From: Actinomycetes bacterium
GTDB taxonomy: Bacteria; Actinomycetota; Acidimicrobiia; Acidimicrobiales; Acidimicrobiaceae
Assembly: GCA_021822605.1 (NCBI GenBank)
Contig: JAKAQL010000011.1
Span: 1-57,149 of the forward strand
Reading direction: 5' to 3'
DNA: 57,149 nt
Shown here: positions 2,192 through 15,177 of the stretch, piece after piece
Layout: every line of letters begins with the position of its first letter
Position numbering within the stretch: the first letter of the stretch is position 1
Program-made: the position numbers and the translations under genes
The notes under the pieces: generated by a model
What the model was told of the DNA's origin: nothing
Database searches by the model: none
The model's input: the letters and a program-made list of their open reading frames with translations, nothing else

Positions 2192-2878
2192 ATGGCTACC
2201 CTGATCCTCCTCCGTCACGGACAGAGCACGTATAACCAAGAGAACCGTTTCACCGGTTGGGTCGACGTCGACCTCACTGAGACCGGATATCAAGAAGCCA
2301 AGAAGGCTGGCGAGCTCCTACACAATGCTGGACTTCTACCCGACATCGTGTTAACCTCGGTGCTGAAACGTGCGATCTACACCACGGATGAGGTCCTCAA
2401 GGTCCTTGATCGCTCATGGGTGCCAGTCGAGAAGAGCTGGCGACTCAACGAGCGCCACTATGGAGGACTCGCTGGACTCAATAAGGCCGAGACGGCCGAA
2501 CGCTTTGGAGCAGAACAGGTCAAGATCTGGCGAAGGAGCTACGATGTCCGTCCGCCCGAGACCTCTGAAGAGGAGCATCGACACTTCATAAGCGATCCGC
2601 GCTATCGAGGACTAAAGGCAACCGACGTTCCCTACACCGAAGCCCTCGCCGATGTGCTGGTACGTGTGATGCCCTACTGGGAGGAACGCATGGTGCCGCT
2701 ACTGCAAGAAGCGCAGACAGTCCTCGTCAGTGCCCATGGCAACTCGCTGCGTGCAATGGTCAAATTCCTCGAGTCGATCCCTGATGATGAGATCGTCGGA
2801 TACGAGATCGCCAACGGCGAACCTATTGTCTATGAACTCGACGGCGAGCTCCACGTATCCTCAAAGACCGTCCTCTGA
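2192..2878 (+). CDS. gpmA: 2,3-bisphosphoglycerate-dependent phosphoglycerate mutase
   Basis: This 228-aa cytosolic enzyme interconverts 3- and 2-phosphoglycerate in glycolysis and gluconeogenesis. The histidine phosphatase signature LLRHGQSTYN is at residues 6-15, with the phospho-accepting histidine at 9. The family motifs FTGWVDVDLTETG and ERHYGGLAGLNK follow, and the second catalytic histidine lies in SAHGNSLRAMVK. Length and motif order match bacterial dPGM. It stands alone between a lipoprotein gene and a convergent sortase gene, which is common for this housekeeping gene. Confidence in the assignment is high. Confidence 0.96.
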   Translation: MATLILLRHGQSTYNQENRFTGWVDVDLTETGYQEAKKAGELLHNAGLLPDIVLTSVLKRAIYTTDEVLKVLDRSWVPVEKSWRLNERHYGGLAGLNKAETAERFGAEQVKIWRRSYDVRPPETSEEEHRHFISDPRYRGLKATDVPYTEALADVLVRVMPYWEERMVPLLQEAQTVLVSAHGNSLRAMVKFLESIPDDEIVGYEIANGEPIVYELDGELHVSSKTVL

Positions 2879-3078: not shown

Positions 3079-4409
3079 TCACCACCCGAGATGCGGGTCA
3101 ACGGTAAGGCAACGCTTGCCCTACGCCGTGACCGGTGATGCCTCGACGATGACGTTGTCGGCGTAGGAGCCACCCACACCGGGGACCTCGGTGAAGGGAC
3201 CGCCACAGGTGACAAGGGCAAGGGTTGGGGGACCCTGGTTGGTGAAGAGCTGAGGGTGAGCCACGGTGTTGGGAGAGAGGGTTGGTTTGGTGGTGATCTG
3301 CCAGGTGGTCTCATGACCTTGCCAGTTGAGGATCACCTGATCTCCGGGGACGAGTTGACCGATCTCACCGAGTGCTCCCTCACCTTGGCCGACCCAGTTC
3401 ACGTGACCCGCCAGAAGGGTGACGCCGGACTCTCCCGGGGTTGGGGTCTGTTCATCCCAACCGACGTTATGGACATCTGGAGGTATGGTGAGTTCTCCGT
3501 TGGTGGGACCCTCAGCGAGGATAGGGGCTGAGATGATGTCAAGGGCGGGGATGGAGATGATGGCGACCTCATTGGGAAGGGTCGGGTTCCAGGGGACCGA
3601 GGTGTAGGTGGGGTTGGTGGGTTTTGTCTTGGCGAGCTTGATCGCTCGTTGGTGATCCTTGATCGTCAGGCGATGGATCTCGGCCTTGGGGGAGTTGTGG
3701 ATCCCCTCATAGGTTAAGAATCCTCCGACGATGATGGCGAGGGAGGCACCAAGGGTGAGGACTTTGGTGAGAAGTCCTCGCCCTTGGTGAGTCGTTCGTT
3801 GGTGTCTATGCGACCTCATCGGTTTTACCGTAGTCGATTGTTCCCTTACGCTTGCGCTCGATACCTACATACGCAAGACCAGCAATGCCAAGACTCGCGA
3901 TACCGATGCCGATGGGGAGGGCATTGGTGGTGTTGGTTGGAGCGGTTGGAGGACCAGTGACCAGTTTGACTGGAGCTGGGGAGGTGGATGAGGACTTGGT
4001 GGTGGGGGTCACCGTCGTTGGCTTGGTGGTGACGACCTTCGGTGCCGAGGTGGGAACAGAGACCGGGATGGTGAGGCTCGAGGAGTTACTGGTCACCGTC
4101 GTACCCGCCGGGTCCGTTGCTGTGGCAGATGCAGTGTCGCTCACCTTACCATTGGTGATGTCGGTACTGGTGACCGTGTAGGTTCCGGTACAGGAGACAC
4201 TTGCACCAGCTGCTAACGACGTAACTGGGCAGGAGATCGGACCTGTCAAGGCCTCGCCAGGGACCGACTGGGTATCGGAGATGGAGAGGTTGTTCAACGT
4301 GGTGTTGCCGGTGTTGGTCACATCAAAGTCATAGGTAATGCTCTGTCCCGCTTTCGTGATGGGGTTGGGGGAACCGGAAGCCTCGATCTTTACGAGGGAG
4401 AGGGAGGGG
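3079..4409. repeat. Copy 1 of a 1,331-bp near-identical direct repeat
   Basis: This stretch matches 6545-7875 at a constant offset of 3,466 nt. It covers the whole sortase gene, the overlap with its substrate gene, and the DUF11-like repeat plus C-terminal anchor of the substrate. The central ~1.2 kb appears identical by eye. The few mismatches I see are near the two edges (around 3096 and 3102, and 4315-4370). Such identity, including silent sites, indicates recent duplication or ongoing gene conversion. Confidence 0.95.
3121..3819 (-). CDS. Class F-like sortase, copy 1
   Basis: This 232-aa membrane-anchored transpeptidase would link surface proteins to the envelope. An N-terminal membrane segment lies at residues 17-36. 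The sortase core contains the catalytic histidine in LLAGHVN (His139), a GDQV strand, and the catalytic cysteine in LALVTCGGPF (Cys205). This spacing is typical of actinobacterial class F (or E) sortases. At the place where class F enzymes usually carry the active-site arginine (YRDNV) this protein reads SYADNV, with Ala220, so catalysis may be altered. The start ATG lies inside the end of the upstream substrate gene (14-nt overlap), implying translational coupling. It is 100% identical at protein level to the sortase at 6587-7285. Confidence 0.85.
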   Translation of the reverse strand: MRSHRHQRTTHQGRGLLTKVLTLGASLAIIVGGFLTYEGIHNSPKAEIHRLTIKDHQRAIKLAKTKPTNPTYTSVPWNPTLPNEVAIISIPALDIISAPILAEGPTNGELTIPPDVHNVGWDEQTPTPGESGVTLLAGHVNWVGQGEGALGEIGQLVPGDQVILNWQGHETTWQITTKPTLSPNTVAHPQLFTNQGPPTLALVTCGGPFTEVPGVGGSYADNVIVEASPVTA

Positions 4410-6040
4410 TTAGACGGAGTGACCACGGCTGGGGTTGTGATGGGAGTGGGGGCCACGACAGCAACGGTCGAAGAAGCGTTGACCGGCAACGCGTCATTAG
4501 ACGAGACCGTCCCATTGACCGTCAAAGAAGATCCCGTCGCGGCCTGACCAGATACCGTGACCGGAACAGTGATCGATGGCAAGGATCCACTGCTTGTAAT
4601 CGGAACCGAGCCAGTATACGTGCACTCTAAAGTCTGGCCCTGCGAATTGCTACAACTCCAGCCTGTCGCGCTGATCTCGTTATAGTCTGGGGTCACGTCG
4701 GTCGGGAACGTACCTTGTAGGGTTGGAGCTGACGACTCCTCAGCACTAGATCCGAGAGCAACACTTGGCGAAAACACAAAGTTGGTACTGCCGCCTGCTT
4801 GTACATCACCGTTGGTAGCGCTGTTCGTAATGCCAAGACCCAGAACTGGCGCTGGGGTTACCGAGTCGACTACAACGTTGTTGATCTCGTGGTATTCGTT
4901 GCCACCACCGGTGGAAGCAGTCCATCCAAAGGTCAGCTGATAAGGGAGTCCGGTTGTTGTATTAACCCAACTCTTTGGTAGACAAACACTCGAATCAGTG
5001 GTCGAGCAATACTCAGACGATGACGTCGAGGCTGCGTACGTTGGCAGTGCCCCACCAAGTTGTACAGGACTGGTAGCACCATATGGCGTAAACTCCACGC
5101 CGTAAGAACCAGAGGGAACTGACCATCCATCCGATGCCGTGTACGCAGTGTCGGTTGGGTTGATCACGACCTCCACTGGGACGCCAGTGTTAGGTCTCGA
5201 TGTGATCGATGGCCGGTCAAGCGATTCGCCAGTGTTCAACTCTCCGCTCGTACTGATCGCACAATAACCGTTGGTTGTGTCACCTGGACCCTTCACCGTC
5301 ACGGTCTGCGGATACGTCTGCTGGGAGGAATAGTCCGGAAGCGGGGTACAACCGGACCCCGCATAATAGGGATTCAGATAGTTACCGTAGACATCGAGCC
5401 CAACTCCCAGATACCCATTTGGTATTCCGTTCACCTCGGAAGTGTTACCCGCAGTATAGGCTGGATAGATCCCATACCCCAAGGCCCCACCAGGGCTACC
5501 ACCAGTCGGTGGTGGTGTCGGATCAGATGGATTCGCTGCGGCAAGGACAAAGCCAATGCCATCTGCTGGACCATCACCTCCGTTGTTCTTATATTGATAG
5601 GTGTCGAACTTTGCGACTAACCCCTCGGAAGTAGGTACGGAACTCGAATAGAAGACAGTTCCGAGTTGCTGAGAACCGTTACTGGTAAGGCGCAACGCCC
5701 CAGAGCCGTTTTGCGTACTCGTGTCAGCGCACTGGGGGATAGCCGAGGTTGTCGAGGGATTGCCGCTGGCAGTCAAACACGCACCGTTTTGGCCAACTTC
5801 TGGGATTGAAGCGGATGGGTTGCTAGGGAGTGTCCATCCCGTACCTACGCTGTTGGAATCGAATAGTTGGTTGACAAAGACCGTCGAGGAAGCCGTGGTC
5901 AGCTGCGTCCCCGCTAATCCATTTACTACGCCAGAACCTACCGCCAGGGCCACTAAACCCAAAGCAACTCCCGAAGTCTTCAGTATCCCAAATCGACCCA
6001 GCACAACACTTCGTCGTGAATGACGGAAACCCATACCCAT
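3806..6040 (-). CDS. Sortase-associated surface protein with L-type lectin-like domain
   Basis: This is a secreted surface protein (744 aa from the ATG at 6040; a GTG at 6067 would add 9 aa). The chosen ATG has GAAAGG just upstream. A signal peptide is followed by a region with FDTYQYKNNGGDGPADGIGF, which resembles bacterial legume-lectin-like domains (about residues 60-400). A middle region follows, then a DUF11/CARDB-like repeat (SLSLVKIEASGSPNP to SSSLTIPV) and a Thr/Pro-rich wall-spanning stretch. The C-terminus has LPIGI, a hydrophobic helix and ERKRKG, the layout of a sorting signal but without the usual LPxTG threonine. The partner sortase overlaps its 3' end. The last ~260 residues are shared with the protein at 7272-9002. 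Adhesion or glycan binding is inferred only. Confidence 0.75.
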   Translation of the reverse strand: MGMGFRHSRRSVVLGRFGILKTSGVALGLVALAVGSGVVNGLAGTQLTTASSTVFVNQLFDSNSVGTGWTLPSNPSASIPEVGQNGACLTASGNPSTTSAIPQCADTSTQNGSGALRLTSNGSQQLGTVFYSSSVPTSEGLVAKFDTYQYKNNGGDGPADGIGFVLAAANPSDPTPPPTGGSPGGALGYGIYPAYTAGNTSEVNGIPNGYLGVGLDVYGNYLNPYYAGSGCTPLPDYSSQQTYPQTVTVKGPGDTTNGYCAISTSGELNTGESLDRPSITSRPNTGVPVEVVINPTDTAYTASDGWSVPSGSYGVEFTPYGATSPVQLGGALPTYAASTSSSEYCSTTDSSVCLPKSWVNTTTGLPYQLTFGWTASTGGGNEYHEINNVVVDSVTPAPVLGLGITNSATNGDVQAGGSTNFVFSPSVALGSSAEESSAPTLQGTFPTDVTPDYNEISATGWSCSNSQGQTLECTYTGSVPITSSGSLPSITVPVTVSGQAATGSSLTVNGTVSSNDALPVNASSTVAVVAPTPITTPAVVTPSNPSLSLVKIEASGSPNPITKAGQSITYDFDVTNTGNTTLNNLSISDTQSVPGEALTGPISCPVTSLAAGASVSCTGTYTVTSTDITNGKVSDTASATATDPAGTTVTSNSSSLTIPVSVPTSAPKVVTTKPTTVTPTTKSSSTSPAPVKLVTGPPTAPTNTTNALPIGIGIASLGIAGLAYVGIERKRKGTIDYGKTDEVA

Positions 6041-6067
6041 CCAACCTTTCAACCACTTCGGCACCAC

Positions 6068-6526
6068 AGCTGTCGTCTACGACGTTCGTGATCCGAAGAA
6101 AATCGACAGTCAAGAAGACGCAGCACTAAACAACACTATCAGGACAATCACGCGATGTGATCAAATTCCAAATCTTTTCTAAAGTTTTCCTAGAATATTC
6201 CGATAATCGCACTTCTGGAAACAAAGCGCAATGGTACTGACCTCCCAGTACAGGAGTAATGCATCCTGTGTCGTGACTCACTGCAATCATCTGACTAGGG
6301 AGGCAAAGGCCCGACATGAATTATGTGTTGTGAAAACATAGGACTCTCCGCCATCTGAAAGCAGTTCTATCGATTCGACGAAGAGGTAGGGACAGCTTCC
6401 CTGGCCGATCTGCTTCTCGTTGGCTGGTCACCACCTATTTGGGAAATGAGCACCAATTTGGAACAGACACCAACTCCAATTCCTGTTACTTCCGCTGGCT
6501 CCTGGAAACTGGAGGGTCTTCCCTTC
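6068..6526. other. Intergenic region between the two sortase cassettes
   Basis: About 460 nt lie upstream of the lectin-like gene and downstream of the second sortase. Short open frames occur, but none has a ribosome site or recognisable sequence. The AT-rich part at 6160-6215 probably holds the promoter of the minus-strand lectin/sortase cassette. Confidence 0.5.
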
Positions 6527-6546
6527 GAGACGCTCTCTTGCGTCTC
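6527..6546 (-). terminator. Hairpin downstream of second sortase
   Basis: GAGACGC (6527-6533) and GCGTCTC (6540-6546) form a perfect 7-bp stem with a 6-nt loop. It lies about 40 nt after the stop of the second sortase and exactly at the outer boundary of the 1,331-bp repeat, so it is a plausible terminator for that cassette. Confidence 0.45.
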
Positions 6547-7875
6547 ACCACCCGAGATGCGGCTCAACAGTAAGGCAACGCTTGCCCTACGCCGTGACCG
6601 GTGATGCCTCGACGATGACGTTGTCGGCGTAGGAGCCACCCACACCGGGGACCTCGGTGAAGGGACCGCCACAGGTGACAAGGGCAAGGGTTGGGGGACC
6701 CTGGTTGGTGAAGAGCTGAGGGTGAGCCACGGTGTTGGGAGAGAGGGTTGGTTTGGTGGTGATCTGCCAGGTGGTCTCATGACCTTGCCAGTTGAGGATC
6801 ACCTGATCTCCGGGGACGAGTTGACCGATCTCACCGAGTGCTCCCTCACCTTGGCCGACCCAGTTCACGTGACCCGCCAGAAGGGTGACGCCGGACTCTC
6901 CCGGGGTTGGGGTCTGTTCATCCCAACCGACGTTATGGACATCTGGAGGTATGGTGAGTTCTCCGTTGGTGGGACCCTCAGCGAGGATAGGGGCTGAGAT
7001 GATGTCAAGGGCGGGGATGGAGATGATGGCGACCTCATTGGGAAGGGTCGGGTTCCAGGGGACCGAGGTGTAGGTGGGGTTGGTGGGTTTTGTCTTGGCG
7101 AGCTTGATCGCTCGTTGGTGATCCTTGATCGTCAGGCGATGGATCTCGGCCTTGGGGGAGTTGTGGATCCCCTCATAGGTTAAGAATCCTCCGACGATGA
7201 TGGCGAGGGAGGCACCAAGGGTGAGGACTTTGGTGAGAAGTCCTCGCCCTTGGTGAGTCGTTCGTTGGTGTCTATGCGACCTCATCGGTTTTACCGTAGT
7301 CGATTGTTCCCTTACGCTTGCGCTCGATACCTACATACGCAAGACCAGCAATGCCAAGACTCGCGATACCGATGCCGATGGGGAGGGCATTGGTGGTGTT
7401 GGTTGGAGCGGTTGGAGGACCAGTGACCAGTTTGACTGGAGCTGGGGAGGTGGATGAGGACTTGGTGGTGGGGGTCACCGTCGTTGGCTTGGTGGTGACG
7501 ACCTTCGGTGCCGAGGTGGGAACAGAGACCGGGATGGTGAGGCTCGAGGAGTTACTGGTCACCGTCGTACCCGCCGGGTCCGTTGCTGTGGCAGATGCAG
7601 TGTCGCTCACCTTACCATTGGTGATGTCGGTACTGGTGACCGTGTAGGTTCCGGTACAGGAGACACTTGCACCAGCTGCTAACGACGTAACTGGGCAGGA
7701 GATCGGACCTGTCAAGGCCTCGCCAGGGACCGACTGGGTATCGGAGATGGAGAGGTTGTTCAACGTGGTGTTGCCGGTGTTGGTCACATCGAAGTCATAG
7801 GCAACGCTCTGTCCCGCCGTCGTGATGGGGTTGGGGGAACCCGAAGCCTCGATCTTTACGAGGGAGAGGGAGGGG
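6545..7875. repeat. Copy 2 of the 1,331-bp near-identical direct repeat
   Basis: This is the counterpart of 3079-4409. Similarity stops at 7876 inside the surface-protein gene, just before the DUF11-like repeat, so the two proteins share the C-terminal module but not the ectodomain. Confidence 0.95.
6587..7285 (-). CDS. Class F-like sortase, copy 2
   Basis: The protein is identical to the 232-aa sortase at 3121-3819. It has His139 in AGHVN, Cys205 in VTCGG and alanine instead of the expected arginine at residue 220 (SYADNV). The start codon again overlaps the end of the upstream substrate gene by 14 nt. Two copies that both keep the same unusual residue argue against a sequencing error. Both would be expected to act on the shared C-terminal LPIGI module of the two surface proteins. 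Redundancy is complete at protein level, so any specificity must come from expression rather than sequence. Confidence 0.85.
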   Translation of the reverse strand: MRSHRHQRTTHQGRGLLTKVLTLGASLAIIVGGFLTYEGIHNSPKAEIHRLTIKDHQRAIKLAKTKPTNPTYTSVPWNPTLPNEVAIISIPALDIISAPILAEGPTNGELTIPPDVHNVGWDEQTPTPGESGVTLLAGHVNWVGQGEGALGEIGQLVPGDQVILNWQGHETTWQITTKPTLSPNTVAHPQLFTNQGPPTLALVTCGGPFTEVPGVGGSYADNVIVEASPVTA

Positions 7876-9002
7876 GTGGACTCTACCACAGGCGCCGAGG
7901 GCACAACCGGTGCAGCCGGAATCTCGACTCCGAAAGCAAGACCCTGCTCCTGTCCACCTCCGGTAACATAATCGGTCGCCTTAACTCTTGTAGGATTTAG
8001 AGTAGAGAGCACGAGGTCACCCACCAATCCCCCACTACTGCCAACGCAACTGACGACATCGGTTCCGATCCCGAGGTTGGCTTCGACCACACTCGGAGTG
8101 AACGTGGGGTTATCTGAATAGCCACTGCTGCCTCCACAGGTATTGGCAAACGTCAGAGACGACTCACTCGGTCTAGTCAGCCGCGGCGAAGGAGGAAGGC
8201 TAGCCGCGCTTTGGGTCAGTGGTAGCACCATCGGACCGACTGGCTGCCAGTTCGCTGTGTTGGTGGAGTTTGTTGTAGACACATTTGTTGTCTTGAACGT
8301 TACCGATTCACCAGCGTTGGTGCTCTCACCATCGGCGGCTACCAGCGTAAAGGGGGAGATCGGAACTCCTGCGGATGATGCTGTAGATGGTGTGGTCAAG
8401 CTCATGTGAGATAGGACAAAACTCCAACTGGCTGGGCCATAGGTCGATGAACCCCCAGCAGTCTGCTGTTGAGAGTACAGGATGTAGGTGTTTCCAGCAT
8501 ATTCACCGGTGGTTGGGAGGTCTACGTACGCCTCACGACCAAACGCGGCGGCGCCCCAGTCAACCGGCGAAGTGACTGCTGTTACCAGAGGTGGGACACC
8601 TGAATCACTGTGCGGGAACTTGTAGGTCAAATCGAAGGAGAAGACATCGCCATTCGGCAGGACCTCTTTGTAACGAATCGGAACTCCAGGAAGTGCCTGG
8701 ACACTTGGGGAGGTCGTCGTGGGTCCGTCCACCAGTGTAGACTCGGACTCCTGTTGAGGCTGAGGAGCGGAATAGCTACCATAGCTAAACCAGCAGATGT
8801 TGCTCGCGTCAGGATCGTTCGCAGCAACGCCACAGTACTGTTGCGGTGCTGGACTCGTTTCAGATGGCGACGAATGCTTCGCTAGCTGGTTTGGAGACAT
8901 GCCAGCGCCTAAAACCAGGACGCCCGCTGCGAGGGTCACTGACGAGAAAACTCGACCCCAATGTGATCGGATTCCGCGCCTCCGATGTTGTGCCTTTCCC
9001 AC
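7272..9002 (-). CDS. Sortase-associated surface protein, second ectodomain type
   Basis: This secreted protein is 576 aa if translation starts at the GTG at 9002. That codon has a strong AAGGGAAGGGAG site four bases upstream and leads straight into a signal peptide (RRRGIRSHWGRVFSSVTLAAG). A longer reading from a TTG at 9113 has no ribosome site. The N-terminal ~360 residues (with YCGVAANDPDASNICWFSYG, an EYAGNTYILYSQQQ segment and several paired cysteines) are unlike the lectin-type neighbour, and I do not recognise the domain. From the SLSLVKIEASGSP segment onward the protein is almost identical to the protein at 3806-6040: one DUF11-like repeat, a Thr/Pro-rich stretch, LPIGI, a hydrophobic helix and a basic tail. 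It forms an overlapping pair with the sortase at 6587-7285. Confidence 0.75.
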   Translation of the reverse strand: MGKAQHRRRGIRSHWGRVFSSVTLAAGVLVLGAGMSPNQLAKHSSPSETSPAPQQYCGVAANDPDASNICWFSYGSYSAPQPQQESESTLVDGPTTTSPSVQALPGVPIRYKEVLPNGDVFSFDLTYKFPHSDSGVPPLVTAVTSPVDWGAAAFGREAYVDLPTTGEYAGNTYILYSQQQTAGGSSTYGPASWSFVLSHMSLTTPSTASSAGVPISPFTLVAADGESTNAGESVTFKTTNVSTTNSTNTANWQPVGPMVLPLTQSAASLPPSPRLTRPSESSLTFANTCGGSSGYSDNPTFTPSVVEANLGIGTDVVSCVGSSGGLVGDLVLSTLNPTRVKATDYVTGGGQEQGLAFGVEIPAAPVVPSAPVVESTPSLSLVKIEASGSPNPITTAGQSVAYDFDVTNTGNTTLNNLSISDTQSVPGEALTGPISCPVTSLAAGASVSCTGTYTVTSTDITNGKVSDTASATATDPAGTTVTSNSSSLTIPVSVPTSAPKVVTTKPTTVTPTTKSSSTSPAPVKLVTGPPTAPTNTTNALPIGIGIASLGIAGLAYVGIERKRKGTIDYGKTDEVA

Positions 9003-9113
9003 GATGCTCCCTTCCCTTGCGTTATCAGCAAGAACCCAAGTGTCCATGTTGACGATTTCACTACTGTACCGCATCGAGAGCGCTTGTGACCACTTTTCTT
9101 TGGATTTTTGCAA

Positions 9114-9696: not shown

Positions 9697-9708
9697 AAGG
9701 AGTCATTG

Positions 9709-11544
9709 ATGAAACGTACAATTCGATTTGCTGGAGTCGCGGTCGCTGCAGGGGCTCTGCTTGCAGCTTGTGGTTCCACGAGCTCAAGTTCAACGTCGAG
9801 CTCGTCGTCAACCCAGCCGATCAAGGGCGGCACCGCCTACTTCGCGGAGCAGCCCGGCGCTTCTCCCAACTATATCTTCCCTCTCACGCCGAGCGGAGAG
9901 TTCTCTGTCAACAACCTCGCCCAGTTCCAGGTGCTGATGTACCGACCTCTCTATTACTTCGGGAACGGCAACAATGCCTCGATCAATTACAACCTCTCCA
10001 TCGGTGACCAGCCAGTCTTCTCCAATGGAGACAAGACGGTGACAGTCACACTCAAGCACTATGAATGGTCCAACGGCACACCAGTCACCTCGCGCGACGT
10101 CATCTTCTTCATGAACCTAGTCAAGGCCGAGAAGGCGAACTGGGGAGCCTACGTGCCTGGAGCCTTCCCTGATAACGTGGTCTCAACCACCGCGCCAAAC
10201 GCCACCACCGTTGTCTTCCAGCTCAACAAGGCCTATAACCCCACCTGGTTCACCTACAACGAACTCTCCCAGATCACCCCATTCCCTATCGCTTGGGATC
10301 GGACATCGCTGACTCAGCCCGCACCTAACCCCGATGCTGCCAATCTGCCTGACACCACAGCGACCGGGGTCAAAGCGGTCTATTCGTTCTTAAACTCCCA
10401 AGCCTCCGATCTGTCCACCTACGCCACCAGCCCGATCTGGTCGGTGGTCGATGGACCATGGGAGCTCTCAAGCTTTACCACCGCTGGTAGGGCGGTGTTT
10501 GTACCCAACACTAAGTACTCCGGCCCTGACAAGCCAAAGCTCTCCGAGTTCGTCGAACTACCTTTTACCAGTGCCTCAGCCGAGTTCAACGTGCTGCGAG
10601 CCGGCAACAACGCGATCACCTACGGATACGTCCCGACCGAAGACCTCACCCAGAAGTCAGCCGTCGAGTCGCTTGGTTATACCATCAACCCATGGGTTGA
10701 CCTTGGTTTCAACTTCTTCCCGATCAACCTCAACAATCCGACGTATGGACCGGTCTTCCAACAGCTCTACTTCCGACAGGCTCTTGAGCACCTGATCGAC
10801 CAGCCCGCCTGGATCACCCACTTCCTCGATGGCTACGGAGTGACGACCGCATCACCGGTGCCAACCGAACCGAGTAACACCTTTGCCGACGCTACCTCAA
10901 AGACCATTCAATACCCGTACTCGATCTCTGCCGCAAAGAATCTTCTGACCTCTCATGGTTGGAAGGTCGTCAACGGCGTGATGACCTGCGAGAGTCCTGG
11001 AACATCAGCGACCGAGTGTGGAGCCAACATCCCACGGGGCCTGAAGATGACCTTCAACATGATCTACGCATCAGGAGTTACCTCGCTCGCCCAAGAGATG
11101 ACTGCACTCTCCTCGGCAGCCAAGCAGATCGGCATCACCCTCGATATCTCGGCACAGCCCTTCAACTCGGTCATATCCGACCAGCCACACTGCACTGCCG
11201 CTCAGTCAGACTGCACCTGGGAGATGGTGAACTGGGGTGGAGGCTGGGAGTACAGCCCGGATAACTACCCAACCGGTGGTGAACTCTTTGGATCAGGACC
11301 AGGCCACACCGGCTTCAGTAACTACGCAAACAACCAGGCCAACCAACTGATCGATGCGACCCACACCGCCACCAACGCCCAGGGAGCCCTTGACGCCTAT
11401 CAAAACTTCATGGACAAGACCCTGCCGGTGATCTATCAGCCCTATCCGGACTACGCGATCTCGGCGATCTCGAAGAAGCTTGGTGGCGTTACGCAGAACC
11501 CTTACCTCGATCTCGCACCTGAGACTTGGTACTTCACGAAGTAG
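9709..11544 (+). CDS. ABC transporter substrate-binding lipoprotein, family 5
   Basis: This 611-aa periplasmic-type binding protein belongs to the peptide/nickel/opine family (SBP_bac_5). The start ATG at 9709 has AAGGAG six bases upstream. The signal peptide ends in LLAACGS (lipobox, Cys at about residue 21), followed by a Ser/Thr linker. Family features include KGGTAYFAEQPG near the N-terminus, YRPLYYFG, the WSNGTPVTSRDVIFFMNLV block and the FRQALEHLIDQPAWI block. No permease or ATPase genes lie beside it, so it either serves a transporter encoded elsewhere or acts as an orphan receptor. The ligand cannot be assigned. Peptides are the usual default, and nickel is possible given the hydrogenase locus 7 kb away, but nothing in the sequence demands this. 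Confidence 0.88.
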   Translation: MKRTIRFAGVAVAAGALLAACGSTSSSSTSSSSSTQPIKGGTAYFAEQPGASPNYIFPLTPSGEFSVNNLAQFQVLMYRPLYYFGNGNNASINYNLSIGDQPVFSNGDKTVTVTLKHYEWSNGTPVTSRDVIFFMNLVKAEKANWGAYVPGAFPDNVVSTTAPNATTVVFQLNKAYNPTWFTYNELSQITPFPIAWDRTSLTQPAPNPDAANLPDTTATGVKAVYSFLNSQASDLSTYATSPIWSVVDGPWELSSFTTAGRAVFVPNTKYSGPDKPKLSEFVELPFTSASAEFNVLRAGNNAITYGYVPTEDLTQKSAVESLGYTINPWVDLGFNFFPINLNNPTYGPVFQQLYFRQALEHLIDQPAWITHFLDGYGVTTASPVPTEPSNTFADATSKTIQYPYSISAAKNLLTSHGWKVVNGVMTCESPGTSATECGANIPRGLKMTFNMIYASGVTSLAQEMTALSSAAKQIGITLDISAQPFNSVISDQPHCTAAQSDCTWEMVNWGGGWEYSPDNYPTGGELFGSGPGHTGFSNYANNQANQLIDATHTATNAQGALDAYQNFMDKTLPVIYQPYPDYAISAISKKLGGVTQNPYLDLAPETWYFTK

Positions 11545-12273: not shown

Positions 12274-15177
12274 ATGCGATTCAATGGGCCGTTAGCGCTG
12301 ATTGCTGGTGGGGCGCTTGCGACGGCGGCGTTGATTATCATGCCATCCACGGCTTTTGCCAGTACCAGTTCGGGACCTGGACTCATCGCGGTCTCCCAAT
12401 CAGGGAGCGTGACTGGAGAAGACGGGGCGCAAGCCTATGGCTCCGTTGTCGGTTCTCATGACGTGGTCGGTGCAGCACCAACACCGGATGGTGGCGGCTA
12501 CTGGATCGTCACGCGCTCGGGGCATGTGTATGCCTTCGGTGACGCGAAGTACTACGGGGATACCTATACCGATGGCCTCACCGGTCTCTCAGGTTCCAAA
12601 CCGCTTAATGCGCCAATCGTCGGTATCGCAGCTGATCCCAGTGGCACCGGCTATTGGCTCGTGGCATCTGACGGTGGGATCTTCAATTTCGGCTCGGCTC
12701 CATTCTTGGGATCCACCTATACCTACGGCTTGACCGGCTTGTCGGGGTCAAAGCCACTGAACGCCCCCGTGACCGCCATTGTCGCTGCACCCTCGGGAGA
12801 GGGTTATTGGCTTATCGCCGAAGATGGAGGTGTCTTCGACTTTGGAGATGCTCCATTCTTGGGATCCACCTATACCTACGGCTTGACCGGCTTGTCGGGG
12901 TCAAAGCCACTGAACGCCCCAATCGTGGGCGCGATTGCCACCCCTTCGGGCAATGGTTATTACATGGTCGCTGCCGACGGCGGTGTCTTCGACTTTGGAG
13001 ATGCCAAGTTCTCCGGTTCCACCTACGATCTTGGCTATACCGGTCTATCCGGGAAGAACCCGCTCCCGGCCAAGGTGACCAGCCTGGTTGTGAATCCCAA
13101 CGGCTCCGGCTACTATGCCGTACTCGGCGATGGACAGGTACTCGCCATCGGTGGCGCACCACCGGTTCCGAACGTCCCGGTCGCGCCAAATGGTCGCGTC
13201 ATTGTGATTCCAAGCAAACTCCCTCAACAAACCCTGCCACCGGCTCCAAAGGCACAGCAGCCAGTCATTCCCCAGCAACCGCAAGGTGGCGGTGGTAGCG
13301 GATTGGGAGGAGGCTCTGGCGGCGGTGGCGCACCGAACAGCGAACCCTCAATCGGCGTACCTACGACAACCTTCTCGATACAACCCGGTCAGACGGCTCA
13401 GTTAACAGCTACCGGAGGGGACGGAACGTACACATGGTCTGAGTCTGGATTGCCGGATTGGGCCTCATTGTCCTCCTCTGGCGAACTATCTCTTGACATC
13501 GCCAACCTTGACAACCAGACTCCAACAGCTCCCTTCGAGGCGACGGTCACGAGCGGCTCTCAATCGCTGACGGTTTCGGTACACGTCGCGATTGCGGTGC
13601 CGCCACTTACGACAACGAGCTTCACAGCTACGGGATCGGGTGCGCCATTCGGTGTGAGCGGCCAATTGTCGGTGCCATCACAGGACGGATCGGGTTACAC
13701 CTTTGGCGAGTCTGGCACCTGGCCGACCGGTCTTACGCTTAGCCAAGATGGGACGCTCGGTGGAACCATTGCTGCCTCAGCTGCAAACCTTGAGGTTTCG
13801 GTGTTGTATGACAGTTACCCCGTCGGTGATGATTCGATCGATATCACAGTGCCCCAGACAGCCCTGTCGATCACCACACCGGCAACGCTATCTATCTATC
13901 CGGGACAAAGCCTGCAGCTGGTGGCGACGGGTGGCGACCCAAGTGAGACCTGGAGTGGAACTGGAACTGGTCCACTCTCCGTGAGTTCGAGTGGAGTTCT
14001 GACGGTAAACAGCTCCCTCACTGCAAGCGATATTGGGTCCAGCACCAGTGAGACTGTATCTGTCACGTCGGGTAGTTCCACAGCCACTGAAGACCTCTCA
14101 GTTACACCTATTGCACCGACATTGGCCTCCTCCTCCTATTCCACTGGCGCGTCTCCTGACATCCAGTTGGACGTCACCAGCGGACAGGGTGCAGGGTACA
14201 CCTTTACCGAATCCGGCACCTGGCCGACCGGTCTTACGCTCACTTCAACCGGCCTCATCGGTGGTTCGCTGTCGACTTCCGCGAGTGGCCTCCAAGTTGG
14301 GATACAGTATGACGGCATAGCGGTGGCAACCGATTCCATCGACCTGACCTATGTGCCAACCACATCACAAACATCACAAAACTGGGCAGGCATCGCAGCG
14401 GTTACATCTGGAACCAGTGACGCTATCTCCTCTGTGAGCGGTACCTTTGTCGTTCCGACGATCGCCTCGACGCAAAACCCCCTCTGTTCTGATGCTACAG
14501 GCTATGACGGTTGCATGGCATCCGAGTGGGTCGGGATCGACGGGATAGGTGGGCAGCAGCTGATTCAGGCCGGCGTGGACGTAGCGCCAGGCCAAAGCTC
14601 TGCTCAACCGTGGATCGAGGTGATCACTCCTACTGACGCAGCACCCGAAACCGAGGTGTCCTTGCAGAAGGATGGCACCAGCTATCCAGTCACCGCCGGC
14701 GATCAGTTGACCGTCACGATCACCAAAACAGCATCGCAGACCTGGCAGATCACTCTTAACGACCGTACTACTGGTGCATCGTACTCAGTGAGCGAGCCAT
14801 TCGAGGCGTCTATCGATACGGCGGGCGAGAGTGCCGAGACCGCCGAATGGATCATGGAATCGCCGATGTTTGGGGACATCACAGCTAGCAGCCCAGGGGC
14901 CAACCTCTGCACTATCAACCCGACCTCTGACGTGACGAGTGCCCCCTGCAACGCCTACTCGATCATGCCGAACTTCTCGACGGGTGGACAGTTTACAGCG
15001 GTGTCCGTCACGTCGACAGGACTATCGACGATGGAAGCGATCACACAAAGCACCTACTCCCCCAATGGGTACGCCCTCGGAGCGAACGGCGACGCGGTAA
15101 CGTATCCTACGACTACACCAGATGGGGCGGCTGTTCCGTTTGCGTTCCAGCTTGTACAGTATCAACGACCGACCTAG
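12274..15177 (+). CDS. Secreted multidomain protein with C-terminal G1 (eqolisin-like) glutamic peptidase domain
   Basis: This exported protein has 967 aa. A signal peptide (residues 1-29, ending STAFAS) is followed by four to five ~50-residue repeats with GYWLVASDGGIFNFG-type cores (about 65-290), typical of propeller-like repeats in acidimicrobial and related actinobacterial proteins. A Pro/Gln/Gly-rich linker (300-355) and Ig-like modules with duplicated GYTF-ESGTWPTGLTL segments (365-700) come next. The C-terminal domain (about 705-967) begins SQNWAGIAAV and contains SEWVGIDGIGG, LIQAGVDV and TAEWIMES. These match the G1 peptidase family, whose catalytic Gln and Glu would be Gln765 and Glu858. 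That family works at acid pH, which fits an acidophile. Cleavage of external protein is inferred, not shown. Confidence 0.8.
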   Translation: MRFNGPLALIAGGALATAALIIMPSTAFASTSSGPGLIAVSQSGSVTGEDGAQAYGSVVGSHDVVGAAPTPDGGGYWIVTRSGHVYAFGDAKYYGDTYTDGLTGLSGSKPLNAPIVGIAADPSGTGYWLVASDGGIFNFGSAPFLGSTYTYGLTGLSGSKPLNAPVTAIVAAPSGEGYWLIAEDGGVFDFGDAPFLGSTYTYGLTGLSGSKPLNAPIVGAIATPSGNGYYMVAADGGVFDFGDAKFSGSTYDLGYTGLSGKNPLPAKVTSLVVNPNGSGYYAVLGDGQVLAIGGAPPVPNVPVAPNGRVIVIPSKLPQQTLPPAPKAQQPVIPQQPQGGGGSGLGGGSGGGGAPNSEPSIGVPTTTFSIQPGQTAQLTATGGDGTYTWSESGLPDWASLSSSGELSLDIANLDNQTPTAPFEATVTSGSQSLTVSVHVAIAVPPLTTTSFTATGSGAPFGVSGQLSVPSQDGSGYTFGESGTWPTGLTLSQDGTLGGTIAASAANLEVSVLYDSYPVGDDSIDITVPQTALSITTPATLSIYPGQSLQLVATGGDPSETWSGTGTGPLSVSSSGVLTVNSSLTASDIGSSTSETVSVTSGSSTATEDLSVTPIAPTLASSSYSTGASPDIQLDVTSGQGAGYTFTESGTWPTGLTLTSTGLIGGSLSTSASGLQVGIQYDGIAVATDSIDLTYVPTTSQTSQNWAGIAAVTSGTSDAISSVSGTFVVPTIASTQNPLCSDATGYDGCMASEWVGIDGIGGQQLIQAGVDVAPGQSSAQPWIEVITPTDAAPETEVSLQKDGTSYPVTAGDQLTVTITKTASQTWQITLNDRTTGASYSVSEPFEASIDTAGESAETAEWIMESPMFGDITASSPGANLCTINPTSDVTSAPCNAYSIMPNFSTGGQFTAVSVTSTGLSTMEAITQSTYSPNGYALGANGDAVTYPTTTPDGAAVPFAFQLVQYQRPT
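12697..12920 (+). repeat. 71-bp exact internal repeat in the propeller region
   Basis: Positions 12697-12767 and 12850-12920 are identical over 71 nt, at a 153-nt (51-codon) period. They encode the same repeat blade (PFLGSTYTYGLTGLSG). This indicates recent blade duplication or conversion. Confidence 0.9.

Follow-up and report, generated by a model that had tools for sequence, protein, structure and literature searches.

A candidate modular surface-display unit in a genus of Acidimicrobiaceae: one mount and sortase beneath different heads

How can two neighbouring surface-protein genes end in practically the same sequence, adjoining sortase gene included, and share nothing recognisable in the parts that they would expose? 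The question is raised by a 57,149-nucleotide stretch of an Acidimicrobiaceae genome (positions 1 to 57,149 of contig JAKAQL010000011.1, assembly GCA_021822605.1; hereafter the window), which corresponds to contig C83 of the draft genome G000 (2.82 Mb in 120 contigs) and carries two sortase-substrate units, assembled in tandem, on its minus strand. We compared it with six other genomes of the genus (G001-G006); all seven are drafts of 60 to 370 contigs, and contigs break inside the repeats described here. As judged from sequence, the comparison shows different heads at the same chromosomal site in different species, unrelated heads on one mount, empty sites and mosaic breakpoints. We propose that the units probably represent a modular surface-display system, in which a C-terminal mount and its own sortase are reused with different heads and the repeated module feeds homologous recombination.

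A near-identical repeat beneath two unrelated ectodomains

The first-pass annotation of the window had reported that a 1,331-bp segment holding the sortase and the substrate's anchor module occurs twice, almost unchanged, and an ungapped base-by-base comparison at an offset of 3466 bears this out. The two copies form a direct repeat with 8 mismatches (copy 1 positions 3097, 3103, 4325, 4336, 4339, 4352, 4353 and 4376), of which two lie towards one edge and six towards the other, so that all differences fall in 110 edge bases and none in the 1,221-bp core (Fisher test, p = 1.7e-9, an illustrative value only, as the borders were picked from the data). Beyond the borders, identity in 20-base steps drops to the level of unrelated DNA, and a 1.3-kb repeat at such identity is not attributable to chance. 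Each copy encodes a complete 232-residue sortase together with the last ~200 residues of a substrate, and extends 42 bp past the sortase stop codon. The features of the two units, all on the minus strand, are as follows.

3079-4409, minus strand: repeat copy 1, with the end of substrate 1 (DUF7507, stalk, sorting signal, transmembrane segment, basic tail), sortase 1 and a 42-bp tail
6545-7875, minus strand: repeat copy 2, with the equivalent parts of substrate 2 and sortase 2
3104-4324, minus strand: identical core, 1,221 bp, equal to 6570-7790
3121-3819, minus strand: sortase 1, 232 residues, class-F-like, overlapping the substrate open reading frame (ORF) by 14 nt
6587-7285, minus strand: sortase 2, protein identical to sortase 1
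3079-3120, minus strand: tail after the sortase 1 stop codon, 42 bp, with a 9-bp-stem hairpin that includes the last stop-codon bases and is common to copy 2
6545-6586, minus strand: tail after the sortase 2 stop codon, 42 bp
3806-6040, minus strand: substrate 1, lectin-like ectodomain (ORF 3806-6067; ATG picked by eye)
7272-9002, minus strand: substrate 2, CshA_NR2 ectodomain (ORF 7272-9113; GTG picked by eye from the G003 match)
5333-5719, minus strand: L-type-lectin-like stretch of substrate 1 (PF18483, 36.3 bits, E 7.2e-9, below the cut-off of 78.3)
7926-8801, minus strand: CshA_NR2 adhesin domain of substrate 2 (PF18651, 39 bits, cut-off 24)
4088-4411, minus strand: DUF7507 copy 1 (PF24346, 89.9 bits, cut-off 27)
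7554-7877, minus strand: DUF7507 copy 2 (PF24346, 85 bits, cut-off 27)
3947-3964, minus strand: putative sorting motif LVTGPP, copy 1, read by eye from the sequence
7413-7430, minus strand: putative sorting motif LVTGPP, copy 2, read by eye from the sequence
6041-6544, minus strand: region upstream of the lectin-type gene, matching only itself in the seven genus genomes

The two substrate ORFs can be aligned only from residue 542 of one and residue 402 of the other to their ends (94.8% identity over 212 residues); the ectodomains are unrelated to each other, as had been claimed. Their initial description as lectin-like versus an unrelated cysteine-containing domain holds in part: the first head is indeed lectin-like, albeit below the Pfam cut-off, and weakly matches a legume lectin of the Protein Data Bank (E 0.0048), and the second is refined to a CshA_NR2 adhesin domain, detected in all five aligned members, the window's included, when the head is scanned alone and not reported when whole substrates are scanned. 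Both heads would fit an adhesive role, by a domain assignment above the Pfam cut-off in one case and below it in the other; single-sequence structure prediction was poor for both (pLDDT 33.5 for CshA_NR2 and 31.7 for the lectin-like head). Of the suggested antigenic or adhesive variation, the term adhesive fits these heads, and the term antigenic has no basis in a genus that we take to consist of free-living acidophiles.

The shared mount consists of DUF7507 and four further elements assigned by eye: a Pro/Thr-rich stalk, a TGP-containing signal (KLVTGPP in the window), a hydrophobic stretch and a basic tail. TGP recurs in 13 of 13 substrate C-termini compared. The window substrates read (K)LVTGPP by eye rather than an LPXTG pentapeptide or one of its listed variants, and the motif is followed, again by eye, by the membrane helix and basic tail typical of LPXTG-type substrates. 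The adjoining sortase scores above the Pfam PF04203 cut-off (66.8 bits against 26.6), and its best NCBIfam class is class F (NF033748) at 71.2 bits, under the cut-off of 166. Catalytic His139 and Cys205 are invariant in the ten aligned sortases of the family, and the 14-nt substrate-sortase overlap was found in 8 of the 8 pairs measured, both window pairs among them (the count leaves out the pairs in loci L041, L042/L050, L045, L048 and L052). A sortase query matched 27 of 41 genomes, G000 included; most of the strong matches belong to the same genus and the others to G012 and G023. At the 3' end, the hairpin compares unevenly with shuffled sequence (z 0.32 for 85 nt around copy 1, z -3.35 for 81 nt around copy 2) and was given no weight, and promoter and terminator scans returned approximately as many hits as shuffled sequence (1 vs 2.8 and 6 vs 5.5).

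Heads and chromosomal sites across the genus

Seven head types are paired with this sortase family across the loci: the lectin-like and CshA_NR2 types; a short type (G003 and G004); a 1,024-residue protein (G003); a type of at least 709 residues in G004, its anchor cut off by the contig end; an ice-binding type in G002 (PF11999, 191 bits, cut-off 28.7), with relatives at 78-88% in G023 and G006; and a glycine-rich type in locus L041. When six of the seven were searched against the fetched loci by tblastn, each matched its own type only. Ice-binding-type substrates accompany the same sortase family in loci L051, L053 and L050 (G002, G006 and G023), with PF11999 scored in L051. A Ferrimicrobium record from a metagenome-assembled genome (L043) carries a substrate identical to that of G006 contig C306.

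The window units occupy a site, termed A, between two genes whose names are our presumption:

2192-2878, plus strand: site A left flank, phosphoglycerate-mutase-like gene (pgm-like), orthologues at 84-96% in G001-G004
9706-11544, plus strand: site A right flank, solute-binding-protein-like gene (SBP1), best matches at 82-96% in G001-G004

Between these flanks G000 has two units, G003 a single CshA_NR2 substrate with a head 58-64% identical to the window's, and G002 a CshA_NR2 unit accompanied by a sortase remnant and an additional copy of SBP. In G004 the site is split over contigs C81 and C66, and the head contiguous with SBP1 is of an unrelated type, different from those of G000, G002 and G003: G004 and G003 agree at 90% over 1,940 bp of the SBP1 flank, and nothing can be aligned between the start of SBP1 and the anchor. 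When the DNA of nine regions, each a head with its upstream sequence, was compared, the G004 site A region matched none, and those of G003 and G004 at a further site, B, matched over 1,224 bp at 83%. In G001 the pgm-like gene lies on contig C31, where no sortase was found, and contig C50 starts 308 bp before SBP1; no pgm-like orthologue was found in G005 or G006.

Two of these loci show further rearrangement. The G003 substrate (locus L058 7203-9095, contig C5) is fused in frame to the C-terminal part of the sortase, with ~0.54 kb absent relative to the window; the fusion lacks the substrate's basic tail and the N-terminal part of the sortase, catalytic His included, through either a deletion or an assembly slip. 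The G002 locus (L046 4691-9313, contig C6) holds two SBP copies, one of them split in two ORFs, with the sortase remnant between them beside the cassette; perhaps this is a larger duplication of SBP plus unit in decay.

Site B, whose flanking genes on both sides are present in all seven genomes, harbours the same head type in G003 and G004 (substrates 79% identical) and a CshA_NR2 head in G001, contiguous with the same right-flank genes and with the left flank on another contig. The site is empty in G000, G005 and G006, with ~0.3-0.4 kb between the flanks (the right flank of G006 is cut by the contig end), and in G002 it holds an unrelated 764-residue ORF. Comparison of an empty with an occupied site is clean here: between its aligned blocks G000 has 7 bp, against 2.7 kb in G003. 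At site C, flanked by a gene we take to be argC-like, G003 encodes the 1,024-residue substrate, the contigs of G004 and G001 end within the sortase, G005 has ~0.5 kb free of any cassette, the G002 contig continues with other ORFs, G000 has a different sortase gene that we read by eye as class E, and the argC match of G006 is weak only. The sequence 3' of the sortase stop codon differs from site to site.

The first-pass suggestion that the exposed part is exchanged while the mount is kept thus finds its counterpart between species, where unrelated ectodomains appear with the same anchor and sortase family at two syntenic sites, A and B; a pattern of fixed orthologues with normal divergence, which would have spoken against it, is not what the relatives display in copy number and ectodomain content. 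All head exchange observed in these alignments is exchange between species.

Relatives of the lectin head were found only in other families. Among 397 genomes of the order, with at most five first-look candidates scored per genome, so that weak further copies could escape, it matched 13: the window's own and 12 others, all from other families, at 41-49% identity with one weak match at 29%. No match was found in G001-G005 or in the 12 other family members listed. These relatives are clear along nearly the whole head up to the fusion point: with the whole of substrate 1 as tblastn query, similarity stops at residues 497-542 in 12 of 14 matching loci, at 541 and 542 in two of them, and the mount starts at residue 542. 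The CshA_NR2 head, by comparison and under the same limit of five candidates, matched 4 of the 397 genomes, all of this genus. Nor did the 504 bp upstream of the lectin gene match anything besides themselves in the seven genus genomes.

A third unit of the window genome, on contig C23 (locus L005, 6,079 bp), is 96% identical to G002 contig C6 over 3.3 kb, far above the identity of the G000 and G002 site A orthologues, with a much more diverged head and shifts in identity at ~4425 and ~3750. This contig may be a contaminant or a recent transfer; it was left out of the exchange evidence, and its CshA_NR2 head is counted among the five aligned members.

Apparent homogenisation, breakpoints and a possible mechanism

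By sequence comparison, the sortases of the genus have an evolutionary history that departs from orthology. Within G004, identity between the site B and site C sortases is 96% over 549 nt, whereas each of the two is 91% identical to its own G003 orthologue, and the site C sortase is 92% identical to the site B sortase of G003. A tree of 12 sortase sequences groups the G004 B and C copies, albeit with support that is not strong (87/88), and approximately unbiased (AU) tests reject grouping of the sortases by site (p = 0.0014 at site B and 0.0007 at site C). Flank identity between G003 and G004 is 92.4% at site B and 78.8% at site C. In G001, contigs C51 and C55 are 98% identical over 311 nt of sortase, which may reflect two copies or strain variants. 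An exact 127-bp match between G001 contigs C41 and C51 was not counted as homogenisation and may be an assembler overlap of k-mer length. Together with the window pair, which looks homogenised in that its differences lie at the edges only, the G004 sortases agree with the earlier proposal of an anchor kept uniform by conversion; the proposal does not extend to the mounts of G003, described below.

Upstream breakpoints likewise differ between pairs. The positions 4409 and 7875 proposed at the outset are valid for the window pair, where similarity breaks at 4409; the window and G003 site B part at ~3975, and either of these parts from G003 site C at ~3750. Downstream, similarity between sites reaches to the sortase stop codon or its vicinity; the window pair shares its 42 bp more.

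These patterns would be accommodated by a unit that comprises an upstream region of its own, then a signal peptide, an adhesin-like head exposed at the surface and the mount, followed without a gap by the sortase gene. The substrate would be exported, and its own sortase would cleave the L-V-T-G-P-P signal and link the head to the cell wall. As mount and sortase recur at several chromosomal sites, homology is available for RecA-type recombination, which could homogenise the sortase along with variable lengths of the mount, and could either join new heads to a working mount or bring gain and loss of whole units. In the window, a lectin-type head may have been fused to the genus's mount and the resulting unit placed in tandem with a resident CshA_NR2 unit, the repeats being homogenised after the tandem arose. 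Anchoring, adhesion, the role of RecA and the direction and timing of these events are all inferred.

Several observations weigh against this proposal or narrow it. Between the three G003 sites, identity is only 60-69% in DUF7507 and 46-60% in the stalk, with 88-92% in the C-terminal part of the sortase; moreover, the G003 site B sortase is closer to the window's (92%) than to that of G003 site C (88%), which implies that homogenisation is episodic. Draft contigs end within the repeats, and some site assignments rest on one flank; the G001 contig carrying the right flank of site B has an exact 127-bp overlap with the end of the left-flank contig of site C, not of site B. By its protein the head of G002 belongs with the window's type, and it gave no DNA match in the nine-region comparison, so a missing DNA match alone does not prove heads unrelated. 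The lectin-like head reaches 33.2 and 36.3 bits in PF18483, below the cut-off of 78.3. Sortase activity itself is predicted: Asn222 stands at the expected position of the catalytic Arg in 10 of 10 sortases, a placement that relies on a weak alignment to 2ln7 (E 0.17), and three more distant sortases of the order (L024, L031 and L032) likewise read DN there. Finally, clean head exchange with no homology on the ectodomain side lacks an explanation, and inspection of site B by eye, with no scan of the ORFs for transposase families, revealed no recombinase, transposase, integrase, terminal repeat or target-site duplication.

One speculative answer to the missing homology, to which we give little credence, is a traffic of small circles: cut out of tandem units, they would carry heads into any other mount copy through homologous recombination. 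A single crossover within the mount would suffice for a circle to enter, no homology on the far side being required, and the product would be a tandem with flanking repeats, as in the window. The window repeat has two phasings one crossover apart, namely the tandem units, or a G003-like single-cassette site A plus a covalently closed 3,466-bp circle containing head, mount and sortase; both yield the same assembly graph, and the tandem layout may itself be an inference of the assembler. If circles do form and re-enter in this way, the mount-sortase module would act as a recombinase-free landing pad through which adhesin heads pass from one chromosomal site to another.

Competing explanations and known systems

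In one rival reading the repeat is an artefact of short-read assembly: either the copies in the cell differ more than assembled, or the lectin unit sits at another place or on a circle, and the assembler fused the middle parts and set the units in tandem. The draft state of the 120-contig genome makes this conceivable, as an exact 1,221-bp repeat is longer than short reads; same-family contigs in G001 and G004 stop within the repeat, their ends overlapping exactly by 127, 138 and 141 bp, and mismatches confined to the edges are what merging would leave. Nevertheless, the copies differ in their bases at each end, and these differences go with different flanks, which means that no fewer than two copies are present; the intervening unit starts and ends in repeat, which fits a tandem or a circle and not an unrelated site; and the evidence for exchange and homogenisation from the other genomes is independent of the window. 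We regard an artefact as unlikely, though worth keeping in mind. Plain tandem duplication of one substrate-sortase pair, followed by divergence of one head beyond recognition under selection and involving no exchange, would account for the adjacency of the copies and for their common downstream 42 bp, whose first bases resemble by eye the site A tails of G003 and G004. Against it, the other-family relatives of the lectin head identify it as something other than a diverged CshA_NR2 head, its upstream region is without a match in the genus, and a fresh copy would not combine diverged edges with an identical core, all of which makes such a history very improbable.

Two further explanations invoke dedicated mobility or switching. 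Were the whole unit a mobile gene cassette, inserting between genes with a recombinase either borrowed or encoded by itself, the clean empty/occupied pair at site B and the species-dependent presence at sites B and C would follow naturally; yet no transposase, integrase, terminal repeat or site duplication was seen by eye, the sequence after the sortase is different at each site, and relatives on mobile elements are weak or distant (one at 40% among viral contigs; 19 plasmid records, all below 60% and at 26-34% in the eight listed), so that we hold this, too, for very doubtful. A phage or plasmid source of the unit was not adopted, given how weak or distant those relatives are. Active phase or antigenic variation, with individual cells changing heads through repeat recombination, is the least credible of the explanations considered: recombination between long repeats that run in the same direction can delete or amplify the 3,466-bp unit, but apart from the CshA_NR2 relative on C23 no further head copy was found in the window genome among the at most five candidates scored, and neither a silent cassette nor a recombinase was noticed in the head searches or, by eye, among the window ORFs, in an assembly whose contigs break in repeats. 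Reuse of mount and sortase with different heads remains the reading that we favour.

In the sap surface-layer genes of Campylobacter fetus, a conserved end common to several genes serves recombination that alters the exposed part, and promoter inversion switches expression; no such inversion switch was seen in the window system. A closer structural parallel is offered by the CshA/CshB NR2 fibrillar adhesins, for which domain shuffling has been argued to create new adhesins (PMC10952558) and which share with the window a CshA_NR2 head, a spacer and a C-terminal wall signal. The evidence consulted there is domain architecture across species, whereas here a sortase gene is coupled to the mount, heads vary at one site and sortases of different sites appear homogenised in at least one genome. 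In Actinoplanes missouriensis, a class F sortase likewise adjoins a gene with a signal peptide, a membrane helix, a basic tail and no recognised pentapeptide, and a quadruple srtF mutant showed no phenotypic change (PMC13251363); in contrast to the window, the consulted part of that study describes no repeats, ectodomain exchange or homogenisation. The abpA-srtB locus of oral streptococci also unites an adhesin bearing a distinct sorting signal with a sortase, and anchoring there was shown experimentally, but it is a conserved single pair with one head and a sortase B (PMC4974636). Periscope proteins are surface proteins thought to vary through homologous recombination of near-identical repeats; their repeats lie inside one protein and change its length, while the window repeat spans two genes and the head differs (PMC9704523). 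Domain shuffling, class F sortase-substrate pairs and adhesin-sortase pairs are each already known, and among the matches listed, at the level of titles and opening lines of abstracts, the literature on sortases of the genus or class, on class F and E sortases and on surface-protein recombination held no account of this arrangement.

Adhesin diversity is usually inferred from the domain architectures of distant species. Here, one genus presents different heads at fixed chromosomal addresses, with mount and anchoring enzyme kept, empty sites and breakpoints that can be mapped, so that the acquisition of surface-protein heads becomes a testable question in an acidophile that is presumably harmless. 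The arrangement also suggests that sortases may be duplicated and homogenised along with their substrates, rather than a single housekeeping enzyme serving them all. Elsewhere in the window, 12274-15177 on the plus strand encodes a 967-residue protein with repeats spaced at 153 bp and, at its C terminus, a Peptidase_A4 domain (78.7 bits, cut-off 22.3).

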